Shown piece after piece: positions 42,619 to 47,287 of a stretch of DNA of 52,584 nucleotides (position 1 is the first letter of the stretch; every line of letters starts with the position of its first letter). Source of the DNA: Thiohalocapsa sp. GTDB lineage: Bacteria; Pseudomonadota; Gammaproteobacteria; Chromatiales; Chromatiaceae. The notes under the pieces were generated by a model. The model was not told the DNA's origin and made no database searches. It was given only the letters and a program-made list of their open reading frames with translations. The translations under genes and the position numbers were made by a program. Where the stretch lies: contig JAIPFF010000039.1 of assembly GCA_021736785.1 (NCBI GenBank), positions 1-52,584 on the forward strand, read 5' to 3'.

Positions 42619-44223
42619 TCAGCCGCCCGGGGGCGCTAGCTTCTCCATGACCTGATCGAGGCTGAAGCTCGCCGCCTTCTGCCGCGGCGGGAACTCCTGA
42701 AACGTCTCCAGGAACTGCGCCACGTAGGCCTGTGCCGGCACCATCAGGAAGGCGCGGTCGATCACCCAGTCATAGTAGGTGTTGGACGTGATCTCGGCGC
42801 GCTCATAGGGGTCGCGGCGCAGGTTTTCCATCAGCGGCACCCGGAGCTCGACGAAGGGCTCCATCCAGACCCGGAGCGTGCCGGTAGCCTTCTGCTCGAG
42901 GAAGATCAGTTTCCAATCGCCGTAGCGCAGCGCCGTCAGGTCGCCGTCGTCGGAGAAGTAGAAGATTTCCTTGCGCGGGCTCTTCTCGGCTTCGCCGGTC
43001 AGCATCGGCAGGATGTTGTAGCCGTCCAGGTGGACCTTATAGGTGCGGTTCATGGCCGGCACCTCGACACCCTGCATCAGGCGCTCCTTCACCTGCGCAT
43101 CGCCGGCAGCGGCAACGAAGGTCGGCAGCCAGTCCATGTGGTGGACGATCTCGTTGGACCATTCCCCGTCCGGGATCTTGCCGGGCCAGCGTACCATTGC
43201 AGGCACGCGCCAGCCGCCTTCCCAGTTGCTGTTCTTCTCGCCGCGGAACGGCGTGGCGGCCGCATCCGGCCAGGTGTTGTAGTGCGGGCCGTTGTCGGTG
43301 GAATAGAAGACGATGGTGTCGTCGGCAATGCCGAGCTCGTCGAGCTTGTCGAGGAACTTGCCGATGTGCATGTCGTGCTCGACCATGCCGTCGGCGTACT
43401 CGTCCTGCCCGGAGATACCGCGCAGCTCTTCCTTCACGTGGGTACGGAAGTGCATCCGGGTGCCGCTCCACCAGACGAACCAGGGCGTGCCGGCCTTGGT
43501 GTTGTCTTCGATGAAGCGGATCGCGGCATCGGAGGTCGTATCGTCGATGGTCTCCATGCGCTTCTTGGTCAGCGGGCCGGTGTCCTCGATCTTCTGGGTA
43601 CCGTCCGGCTGCGCCCAAGAGTGGATCACGCCGCGCGGGCCGAACTGCTCGCGGAAGGTCTTGCCGCTCGGCAGTACCATATCGCCGGGATAGTCCTCGT
43701 TCTCGGGCTCTTCCTCCGCGTTCAGGTGATAGAGATTGCCGAAGAACTCGTCGAACCCGTGGTTGGTGGGCAGATGCTCGTCGCGGTCGCCCAGATGGTT
43801 CTTGCCGAACTGGCCGGTGGCATAGCCTAAGGCCTTGAGCATCGCGGCGATGGTCGGGTCTTCGGTCTTCAAGCCGAGCTCGGCGCCGGGCAGGCCCACC
43901 TTGGAGAGGCCGGTGCGGAAGACGCTCTGCCCGGTGATGAACGACGAGCGGCCGGCGGTGCAGGACTGTTCGCCGTAGTAGTCCGTGAAGGTCATGCCCT
44001 CGTTGGCGATGCGATCGATATTGGGTGTCTTGTAACCAACCAGGCCGTGCGTGAATGCGCTGATGTTGGACTGGCCGACGTCGTCGCCCCAGACGACCAG
44101 AATGTTGGGTTTCCCGCTTGTTGTCGGGGCCGCCGGTGCGGATTCCGCGGTCTGCGCTTGCAGGGGCGATGCGAAGATCGCCAGCGCTGCTGCCATGATG
44201 GGCAGCCTCTGGATTGCCTTCAC
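42619..44223 (-). CDS. periplasmic sulfatase (formylglycine-dependent)
   Basis: A 534-residue precursor with a signal peptide (residues 1-23, LQAQ). It has the sulfatase/alkaline-phosphatase fold: metal ligands D47-D48 in VVWGDDVG, the modification motif C88-T-A-G-R92 (C-x-A/P-x-R, where Cys becomes formylglycine), GKNHLGD with Lys and His contacts, and YSTDNGPH with Asp and Asn metal ligands. It should hydrolyse an organic sulfate ester. A modifying enzyme (FGE or anSME) is needed and not in this window. The start is GTG at 44223 after AAGGAGG at ideal spacing. It follows the STAS gene by 58 bp and lies behind a sigma-54 promoter. Confidence 0.93.
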   Translation of the reverse strand: MKAIQRLPIMAAALAIFASPLQAQTAESAPAAPTTSGKPNILVVWGDDVGQSNISAFTHGLVGYKTPNIDRIANEGMTFTDYYGEQSCTAGRSSFITGQSVFRTGLSKVGLPGAELGLKTEDPTIAAMLKALGYATGQFGKNHLGDRDEHLPTNHGFDEFFGNLYHLNAEEEPENEDYPGDMVLPSGKTFREQFGPRGVIHSWAQPDGTQKIEDTGPLTKKRMETIDDTTSDAAIRFIEDNTKAGTPWFVWWSGTRMHFRTHVKEELRGISGQDEYADGMVEHDMHIGKFLDKLDELGIADDTIVFYSTDNGPHYNTWPDAAATPFRGEKNSNWEGGWRVPAMVRWPGKIPDGEWSNEIVHHMDWLPTFVAAAGDAQVKERLMQGVEVPAMNRTYKVHLDGYNILPMLTGEAEKSPRKEIFYFSDDGDLTALRYGDWKLIFLEQKATGTLRVWMEPFVELRVPLMENLRRDPYERAEITSNTYYDWVIDRAFLMVPAQAYVAQFLETFQEFPPRQKAASFSLDQVMEKLAPPGG

Positions 44224-44281
44224 GAAAGGTCCTCCTTATCGGATGATGAGAAAACGTTGATGTGCGCCGCGTGCCGGTCGT

Positions 44282-44786: not shown

Positions 44787-46400
44787 ATGCATGAATCGGG
44801 GGAGGCGCGTTTCGTCGACCTCTTGACCGCCATGGCGGCGTCGTTCGTCAATGTCGAGCCCGATGCGCTCGATGACAGAATCGAGGAGGCGCTGCGCGAT
44901 ATCGTTCTGTTCTTGGGCATCGATCGCAGCACGGTCGGCAGTTTCGACGACGCGCATGGACAGCTGATGCCGACGCATTCCTGGGCCGTCGACGGCGTGA
45001 GCCCGCTGCCTTCGCCGCTTCCCGCCTCGGATTTTCCGTACATCGACCGTTTAATCCAGGCCGGGAAGGAGGCAATCCTCGAGCGGGTCGATCATCTGCC
45101 GCCGGAGGCGTCCCTCGATCTCGCCTCGTTGCGCAGAGTCGGCCTGCAGTCCGTCGCCGCGTTCCCGCTGACCGCCGAGGGCCGCACGGTTGGCTGGCTG
45201 TCTTTCGGTGCCGTTCGGGCCGAGCGGGCATGGCCGCCCGCCCTCGTGCGCCGTCTGCGGCTGATTGCCGACGTGTTCGCCAACGCCCTGCTGCGCCGGC
45301 AGAAGGACCGGGAGCTGCGCCACGCGCTGAGCGAGAATATGCGCTTGCGCAGCCGCCTCGAATCCGAGAACGCCGTCTGGCGCGAAGAGGTCCTGCACTG
45401 CCGGGATCTAGAAGAGGTGGTCGGCGACAGCGTGATGCTGCAGCAGGTCATGCGGCAGGTCGAGCAAGTTGCGCGGACCGATAGCACGGTCCTGCTGCTC
45501 GGCGAGACCGGGACCGGCAAGGACTTGATCGCAACGACGGTCCACAGGATGAGCGGCCGCGCGGAGCGCCCGCTGGTCCGCGTGAACTGTGCCGCGCTTC
45601 CGGGCACGCTGATGGAAAGCGAGCTGTTCGGACACGAAAAGGGTGCCTTCACCGGCGCGCTTGCGCGCCGCCCGGGCCGTTTCGAGCTGGCGGACCGCGG
45701 CACCATCGTGCTCGACGAGATCGGCGAGCTGCCGCTGGAGCTCCAGTCCAAACTGCTGCGGGTGCTGCAGAGCGGGGAGTTCGAGCGCCTCGGCGCATCG
45801 CAGACGCGAAAGACCGATGCGCGTGTGATCGCCGCCACCAATCGGGACCTCTCGGCCATGGTGCGCGAGGGAACCTTCCGCGCCGACCTGTTCTATCGCA
45901 TCGGCGTTTTCCCGATTACCGTCCCGCCCCTGCGCGAGCGCCGGGACGATATCGCGCTGCTGGTTGCCTATTTCGTGGACAAGCTGCGCCCGAAGCTCGG
46001 CCGCAAAGTAATGCGTGTTTCCGATGCCGCCCTGGCGCGGTTGGTCGCCTACGATTGGCCCGGCAACGTCCGCGAGCTGGAGAACATCATCGAGCGCTCC
46101 ATGATCTGCTCCTCGGGCAGCGAGCTCGAGGTGGTCGGCATTCCGCGGCATCCGCAGGGCGAGGGTTGTCCGCGTATCGCCACGTTCGCGAGCGGGGAGG
46201 CCGCGCTGCGCACATTGGCGGAAGTCGAGCGCGAGTACATCGCCATGGTGTGCGAGCGCTGCGGCTGGCGGATCAACGGCAAGGGCAATGCCGCCGACAT
46301 CCTCGGCTTGAATCCGAGCACCCTGCGCTCGCGCATGAAAAAGCTCGACATCGCCCGGCCGGATCACGCGCTGTCCGCTTCGGGCGTAGTCCGGACGTGA
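44787..46400 (+). CDS. sigma-54-dependent transcriptional activator, GAF-AAA+-Fis
   Basis: A 537-residue enhancer-binding protein. The N-terminal GAF-type sensor (about 10-175) includes [25 protein letters not shown] coiled segment joins it to the AAA+ domain (about 205-435) with Walker A GETGTGKD near 239, [13 protein letters not shown] near 287 (the loop contacting sigma-54), Walker [10 protein letters not shown] and the [12 protein letters not shown] motif. A Fis-type helix-turn-helix closes it ([21 protein letters not shown]). The organisation resembles FhlA and NorR. GGAGG precedes the ATG at 44787. It is divergent from the STAS-sulfatase operon and is its probable activator; the ligand is unknown. 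Confidence 0.92.
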
Positions 46401-47287
46401 GCAGTCTCGCACTCATTGCCGATATCGGCGTGCCCGTGGTCGTCTGGCTGCTGATGTTCGTCGTCGGTCTGGATCTCTCACCCGCGGATTTTCGCCGTGT
46501 TTTTGCCTATCCGAGGACGGTTCTGGTCGCCACGGCGGCGCAGGTCGTGCTGCTGCCGCTGCTGGCGGCCCCGCTGATTTGGCTGCTGCAGCCCCCGCCG
46601 GCCATCGTGGTCGGCATCGTGCTGCTGGCCGGCACCCCGGGCGGTGCCATCTCGAACTTTTACGCCTTATTGGCGCGCGCCAATGTGGCGCTGTCGGTGA
46701 CGCTGACGGCGATCTCCAGCCTGCTCGCGGTCGTCACGATGCCGTTGCTGACAGGCGTCGGAATGGCTCTGTTCGTCGATCCTTCACTCGAGTTGGAGGT
46801 ACCGGTCGCGCGCATGGCGGGTCAGTTGCTGTTGATACTGCTGATGCCGGTGGGGTGCGGCATGCTGCTTAGGCGTTATCTGCCGCTATGGGTACTACGT
46901 CACGGCGGTCTGCTCCGCGCCGTGAGTCTGGGTGCGCTCGCGCTGCTGGTGGTGTTGCTGCTCGCGGCTCAGCATGCGGTGGTGGCCCGGGAGATGTGGC
47001 TCGTCATACTGCTCGCGCTGCTGTTCACGGTGGGCGCCATGGCTATCGGATGGGTCGTCGGGCATGTGCTCGGCTGCAGTGCGGACGACCGCTTTACACT
47101 GGTGCTGGAGTGCACGGCCCGTAATCTCGCGATCGCGGCCGTGGTTGGCGTGGCGGTGCTCGGCAGTGTCGATTTCGTGTTTTTCGCCACTGTCGTGTTC
47201 CTGGTTCAGGTTGTGCTTGTTCTGGCCTTGGTCGCAGTGCGTTCGAGGCTCCGGCACGCGAGCCATTTCGGCGCTGCCGCGGGCTAG
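46397..47287 (+). CDS. bile acid:sodium symporter (BASS/SBF) family transporter
   Basis: A 296-residue membrane protein with nine or ten hydrophobic segments. [36 protein letters not shown] is the core of the SBF family, and [16 protein letters not shown] is the second conserved crossover region. Bacterial members take up bile acids, pantoate, keto acids or other organic anions with sodium. The start is GTG at 46397 inside the stop of the activator gene (GTGA), so it is co-translated with the regulator. This suggests that it carries the inducer or the desulfated product. The distant open frame upstream overlaps the activator gene in another phase and is not coding. Confidence 0.85.

Follow-up and report, generated by a model that had tools for sequence, protein, structure and literature searches.

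A stretch of 52,584 nucleotides from Thiohalocapsa sp. (contig JAIPFF010000039.1; the whole stretch is called the window here) very probably carries a dedicated sigma-54 circuit for a sulfatase, in which an enhancer-binding protein (the activator), three dyads and a -24/-12 promoter would act together and whose enzyme is itself probably periplasmic and of the formylglycine type. An earlier note on this DNA had recognised the activator gene as diverging from STAS and sulfatase genes, and all the genes that it named are present and backed by Pfam or by structural models. Its proposal that these parts form a sigma-54 circuit is now strongly supported by comparison with related genomes. At the level of sequence, this comparison establishes the recurrent gene set, the predicted promoter and dyads, the fixed geometry that links them, and the retention of both kinds of site where the neighbouring activator is fragmentary. 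Three features go beyond the earlier note: an almost leaderless start, an enhancer geometry that is held across relatives, and sulfatases that differ from locus to locus.

Results

The activator combines GAF, Sigma54_activat (PF00158, expectation value (E) 3e-69), AAA lid and C-terminal Fis-type helix-turn-helix (PF02954, E 2.5e-9) domains. RpoN, on whose presence the idea of such a circuit depended, is encoded in the same genome (PF04552, E 4.7e-68). Assignments of the activator as NifA or NorR were rejected, the respective NCBIfam equivalogs scoring 405.3 and 372.7 bits, under cut-offs of 528.85 and 476. Between the divergent genes, the earlier note had placed a near-consensus -24/-12 element (TGGCACGCGGGATGCT) and three dyads 125-178 bp upstream of the predicted start, and both were recovered where it had put them (Table 1). 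By its score alone this promoter is modest evidence, because two other sites match it among the 3 that reach 10 of 11 positions in the 52.6-kb window; its strength comes from comparison.

Table 1. Coordinates of the predicted sulfatase switch and of the genes around it
Feature	Position in window	Strand	Basis or remark
Predicted outer-membrane beta-barrel, accessory	40553..41416	-	Foldseek of model; true start perhaps near 41332 (by eye)
HAD-family hydrolase, signal-like N terminus (by eye), accessory	41413..42417	-	PF12710; PDB 4ovy E 5.2e-125
Sulfatase, signal-like N terminus (by eye), CTAGR site	42619..44223	-	PF00884 E 3e-50
Single-domain STAS protein, 87 amino acids, first gene after the predicted sigma-54 promoter	44282..44545	-	Pfam STAS_2 below cut-off, and model
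Predicted transcription start, 3 nucleotides before STAS start codon	44548	-	From -12 C at 44560
Predicted -24/-12 sigma-54 promoter	44559..44574	-	10/11 consensus positions; distance to STAS kept in relatives
Dyad 3, about -132 from predicted start, 23 bp from dyad 2	44674..44685
Dyad 2, about -154, 17 bp from dyad 1	44697..44708
Dyad 1, nearest activator gene, about -171	44714..44725
GAF-AAA+-Fis enhancer-binding protein (activator)	44787..46400	+	Pfam domains; GAFTGA at residue 286
BASS/SLC10-family transporter	46382..47287 (start codon provisional)	+	PF01758 E 2.1e-28, 99.7 bits

For that comparison, 210 genomes of the family were searched, and activators of at least 63% identity over most of their length were taken as orthologues. 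Sixteen of these genomes, the window's own included, hold one, and the neighbourhoods of all 16 activator loci (the window and 15 relatives' loci) were compared; contigs end near some of them, so that gene absences are possibly overstated. A sample of 369 genomes of the class, again including the window's own, yielded a single further activator match at E 1e-135, and because this sole match has 48% identity, the module is not traceable beyond the family in that sample. A search of genome contigs with the activator returned 591 matches, the best 80 of which covered mostly the conserved AAA+ core, and it was not used to define relatives.

Transcription from a sigma-54 promoter usually starts 12 nucleotides (nt) past the C of its -12 element. 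In the 11 activator loci in which STAS comes first, the best -24/-12-like site within 40 nt upstream puts -12 at 13-15 nt from the STAS start codon in every case (11/11); ten of these sites have a GG/GC core and match 7 to 10 of 11 positions, and L169 has GT for GC. Two further promoters, from the genome G204, fit the same pattern, which brings the STAS-first loci with this distance to 13 of 13 and their cores to 12 GG/GC and 1 GG/GT (L169). As a control, 50 of 5388 candidate start codons had a GG/GC core with at least 7 of 11 positions at that distance, in a set that was drawn from both strands of the same loci and included nested starts and the STAS starts themselves. Given the usual 12-nt offset, a -12 element at 13-15 nt predicts a sigma-54 transcript that is almost leaderless, starting 1-3 nt before the STAS start codon.

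The STAS start codon used here is probably the real one, because the gene has a dN/dS (ratio of nonsynonymous to synonymous substitution rates) of 0.15-0.67, a conserved MT.RIT begins at that codon, and the first strand of the modelled protein runs from residue 3. The dN/dS values are rough, since many dS exceed 1 and synonymous sites are often saturated (35 of 36 pairs were computable). Against Pfam the protein reaches 23 bits, under the cut-off of 29.2, and its profile gave no useful match against PDB sequences. Its model (predicted local distance difference test, pLDDT, 88) was matched by Foldseek to RsbV (6m36, E 1.2e-4), MlaB (6xbd, 1.1e-3) and SpoIIAA. Phosphorylatable anti-anti-sigma factors of the RsbV/SpoIIAA kind carry a Ser or Thr after the conserved Asp; here the residue after the invariant Asp52 is A, E or D in all nine aligned sequences, the equivalence being judged by eye.

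The dyads share a consensus near ACGANATNTCGT, and a 12-mer was counted as dyad-like if it matched 10 of 12 positions, two of the twelve being free. Such 12-mers are commoner there than chance would give: taken over the 16 loci, the 5.7 kb that precede the activator contain 41 of them, against 75 across 254 kb of other sequence, and pairs 15-25 bp apart occur 21 times upstream of the activator and 0 times elsewhere. Geometry was assessed in 15 promoters, namely the 13 STAS-first ones and those of L166 and L168, which are without STAS; L167, L173 and L051 have no comparable promoter. A search of related genomes for the gene set and the dyads, which the earlier note had proposed, finds that all 15 promoters have three dyad-like sites upstream, whose distances from the predicted start are nearly constant. 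In twelve of them the sites lie at about -168 to -174, -150 to -156 and -128 to -134, and in L050, L169 and L172 they are shifted by 10-12 bp, or about one helical turn. All three sites reach 10 of 12 positions in 11 of the 15 promoters, and L166, L175, L176 and L212 each have one site that scores 9.

How closely is the activator paired with its dyads? A scan of the window's genome for the tandem pattern (17-bp spacing, at most 3 mismatches) finds it solely at this locus and at C87:40493, there with a different centre and beside a paralogous activator. Exact single dyads lie at 4 other places in this genome with no convincing promoter nearby; L217 has one 9/11 match close to a different, weaker dyad-like site. 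G204 has an intact activator-BASS pair in L173 without an adjacent sulfatase, and on other contigs (L212, L213) dyads, promoter and STAS-sulfatase genes beside a local activator in fragments. This distribution suggests that the surviving activator of G204 controls the L212 and L213 promoters in trans. The trans reading rests on one genome, because the other two genomes with orphan or degenerate loci have no further tandem sites: G125 (89% complete) has none, and G032 has one solely at its degenerate activator.

A paralogous arrangement was observed in L190 of the window's own genome (G000:C87, 4016-9500), where a PAS-type activator faces an NMT1-like/ABC-transporter operon and the dyad motif has a different centre. 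Its promoter (7422-7407, minus strand) matches -24/-12 at 11 of 11 positions, with dyads at 7494, 7511 and 7532 spaced 17 and 21 bp; as far as predicted sites can tell, this paralogue repeats the regulatory plan of the sulfatase switch. Eleven distant activator loci (L053-L056, L179-L185) had no matching dyad pairs near starts, a weak negative in that the same script also missed the L190 dyads. Two of the eleven, L054 and L179, have a 10/11 -24/-12 match upstream of the activator on the opposite strand. In L054, a weak STAS-like match (2144-2389; 36%, E 3e-4) adjoins the distant activator (46%), the 10/11 -24/-12 match lying at 4133-4148.

A sulfatase diverges from the activator in 13 of the 16 loci; that of L178 matches at both ends alone and is thus internally deleted, and none lies beside the activator in L167, L173 and L051. 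The window's enzyme has CTAGR at residue 88, in agreement with the type I sulfatase motif C-x-[PA]-x-R, and the site is kept in all 12 sulfatases compared. Its genome contains 6 matches to PF03781 (FGE family), two of them in one open reading frame (best E 6.4e-56), and a sequence resembling a ribosome-binding site, AAGGAGGA, was noted by eye upstream of the gene. Behind the promoter, the enzymes vary: activators of L175 and L176 are 97% identical and their sulfatases 64%, and in L170 and L171 the figures are 88% and 53%. Because activator identity exceeds sulfatase identity in both pairs, the switch varies less in sequence than the enzyme that it is predicted to control. Two explanations suggest themselves: the sulfatases act on a common substrate, or the sensor responds to a broader cue than the substrate of its particular enzyme.

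STAS is the first gene in 11 of the 16 activator loci, 9 of which have an intact copy and 2 (L171, L172) a broken one; with L213, it is broken in 3 of the 13 STAS-first loci. A BASS gene, which in the window overlaps the 3' end of the activator gene and whose nearest solved relatives are bile-acid transporter structures, adjoins the activator at 11 of the 16 loci, among them L175, where it matches in two pieces; one more locus, L051, has a fragment. HAD and barrel genes are present in 7 and 5 of the 16 loci. The barrel reading frame is without a Pfam match, and its modest model (mean pLDDT 64) is matched by outer-membrane barrels. A simple scan of the 201-bp gap after the sulfatase gene found no terminator-like or sigma-70-like site.

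Further observations concern the surroundings of the module. STAS is truncated, frameshifted or absent in L171, L172, L213, L166 and L168, where promoter, dyads and sulfatase are still kept. L051 (5741-8180) has a degenerate activator that matches in two frames and a transporter fragment, and keeps two dyad-like sites 17 bp apart. In L050, from a relative of the same genus, a unit like GACGCGTGAGATT forms short tandem repeats at about 8215-8300, within the STAS-sulfatase interval. An aquaporin (MIP) family gene lies near the module in L177 (2881-3618), L174 (480-1214), L178 (8805-9542) and L166 (9099-9881), and L170, L175 and L176 have a DUF900 hydrolase cluster nearby (Pfam assignment from the L175 copy). 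The assembly that holds the window's contig comprises 96 contigs and 5.2 Mb. Because it encodes two photosynthetic reaction-centre proteins, the second of which has reaction-centre M chains as its closest solved structures, the host would be a phototroph, and probably a purple sulfur bacterium of the Chromatiaceae.

Discussion

How might the sulfatase switch operate? We envision a scenario whereby the GAF-domain activator, expressed divergently together with the BASS transporter, would bind the three dyads, which lie about 132, 154 and 171 bp before the predicted start, and from there switch on RpoN-polymerase at the -24/-12 element. The resulting transcript would cover STAS, sulfatase and probably the HAD and barrel genes, with STAS translated from an almost leaderless mRNA and the sulfatase from its own ribosome-binding site. 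The GAF ligand would most likely be a small molecule tied to the use of organic sulfate, perhaps imported by the BASS protein, and the STAS protein would most likely serve as a partner that tunes the activator or the transporter.

Several observations weigh against this scenario, or at least against its wider parts. The compared loci share kinship, and their counts are not independent, which is why no probability is attached to them. Some promoters are weak, with 7 or 8 of 11 positions or with GT for GC in L169. The 15 stretches that hold the fixed dyads also contain eleven extra weak dyad-like matches at other distances, and single weak sites therefore mean little. Close sulfatase orthologues (83-87%) in four genomes of the same genus have no activator or STAS gene within 1.5-kb flanks; these genomes give no activator match at E 1e-100, or core matches of 49-52% alone, and around their sulfatases a dyad matrix finds none but low-scoring sites. 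Several loci have a broken STAS gene or none, and BASS, HAD or barrel genes are often missing as well; the wider module is therefore dispensable. That the HAD and barrel genes are transcribed together with the sulfatase is an assumption, and the BASS gene shares the activator's strand, outside the reach of the sigma-54 promoter. Consequently, the unit for sensing, import and hydrolysis that the earlier note envisaged stands in one part, the frequent position of the transporter beside the activator, and falters in others, namely the patchy HAD and barrel genes and a transporter that is not behind the promoter.

Could the same sites be read differently? Conceivably, the dyads serve another regulator or autoregulation of the activator, the -24/-12 element is incidental, and the sulfatase is driven from elsewhere. 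The window does contain other single sites with a similar promoter score; L174-L177 each have an additional dyad-like site closer to the activator start, as autoregulation would allow; and one dyad-like site is retained upstream of the orphan activator in L173. Nevertheless, the distances between promoter and dyads are nearly constant throughout the 15 promoters, any displacement being close to one helical turn, and this makes the explanation very improbable; that a scan of 40400-48000 detected no sigma-70-like promoter adds little weight, as shuffled sequences average just 0.7. A second possibility is that the circuit is real and that sulfate-ester cleavage is not its purpose, STAS being the main target or the enzyme acting on another ester. 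Quite different sulfatase sequences behind the same switch would fit this idea, as would the promiscuity of which sulfatase-superfamily enzymes are capable, whereas the invariant CTAGR, the FGE-family matches in the genome, and the keeping of promoter, dyads and sulfatase in L166 and L168 without STAS argue against it; we consider it unlikely.

The leaderless start is open to a challenge of its own, since another upstream promoter might provide STAS with a conventional leader and leave the sigma-54 transcript to the sulfatase alone. STAS starts with GTG in L169, L171 and L213, and non-AUG codons are reported to be inefficient on leaderless mRNAs in E. coli (PMC3616915); STAS is also broken in L171, L172 and L213. 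The unvarying distance between -12 and STAS, together with the conserved MT.RIT at that very codon, favours the leaderless start, and we judge the challenge to be somewhat improbable. We thus retain the dedicated sigma-54 circuit as the preferred reading. A bolder version of it, which we put forward tentatively and ourselves doubt, is that of a plug-in cassette: the promoter would be hard-wired to the STAS start codon, the enhancer geometry constant across the family, the sulfatases different, and one activator able to serve several promoters in trans, with leaderless STAS acting as a built-in feedback or ribosome-state sensor.

If the circuit operates as proposed, phototrophic bacteria, probably of the purple sulfur group, gain a specific switch for the use of organic sulfate, and one that is open to testing. 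Fifteen related promoters whose enhancer geometry is nearly fixed, apart from shifts of about one helical turn, amount to a natural data set on the reach of an activator to sigma-54-polymerase. The almost leaderless start, if true, would represent a conserved class of sigma-54 transcript; one differential RNA sequencing study associated an extended -10 motif with leaderless mRNAs and noted that no specific promoters had been described for them (PMC4842269).

The component kinds (sigma-54 activators, type I sulfatases, STAS and BASS proteins) are all known, and their combination is undescribed in the literature searched: among the matches listed from open-licence PubMed Central articles, no description of a dedicated circuit of this composition was found. 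A link between sigma-54 and sulfatases has some precedent in Paraburkholderia phymatum, for which a table in a sigma-54 study lists 'sulfatase' with a value of -1.6 (PMC5979394), the passage concerned describing no such circuit. With enhancer-binding proteins of the NifA and NorR type, the window's system shares the GAF-AAA+-Fis order, GAFTGA, upstream dyads, a divergent -24/-12 promoter and RpoN; it differs in its equivalog scores below cut-off, its sulfatase-operon target and the almost invariant 17/22-23 bp spacing of its three dyads. SfnR-type activators place organosulfur scavenging under sigma-54 control. As that control is generally described, the likeness lies in the tie between sigma-54 and sulfur-source genes, a sulfatase among them, whereas here a GAF-domain activator with dyads of its own sits divergently beside the sulfatase.

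The enzyme itself resembles formylglycine type I sulfatases in its PF00884 domain and its C-x-A-x-R site, and no difference was seen at that level. The STAS protein shares the fold of RsbV, SpoIIAA and MlaB; it may depart from them in having no Ser or Thr after Asp52 (in the nine sequences aligned, by eye), and it differs in being encoded first behind a predicted sigma-54 promoter, with an almost leaderless start. Among SLC10 transporters, human SOAT is reported to carry sulfated steroids (PMC10298714). The window's transporter is akin to the BASS/ASBT and SLC10 proteins in its SBF family and in its likeness to bile-acid transporter structures, and is set apart by being encoded together with an enhancer-binding protein.

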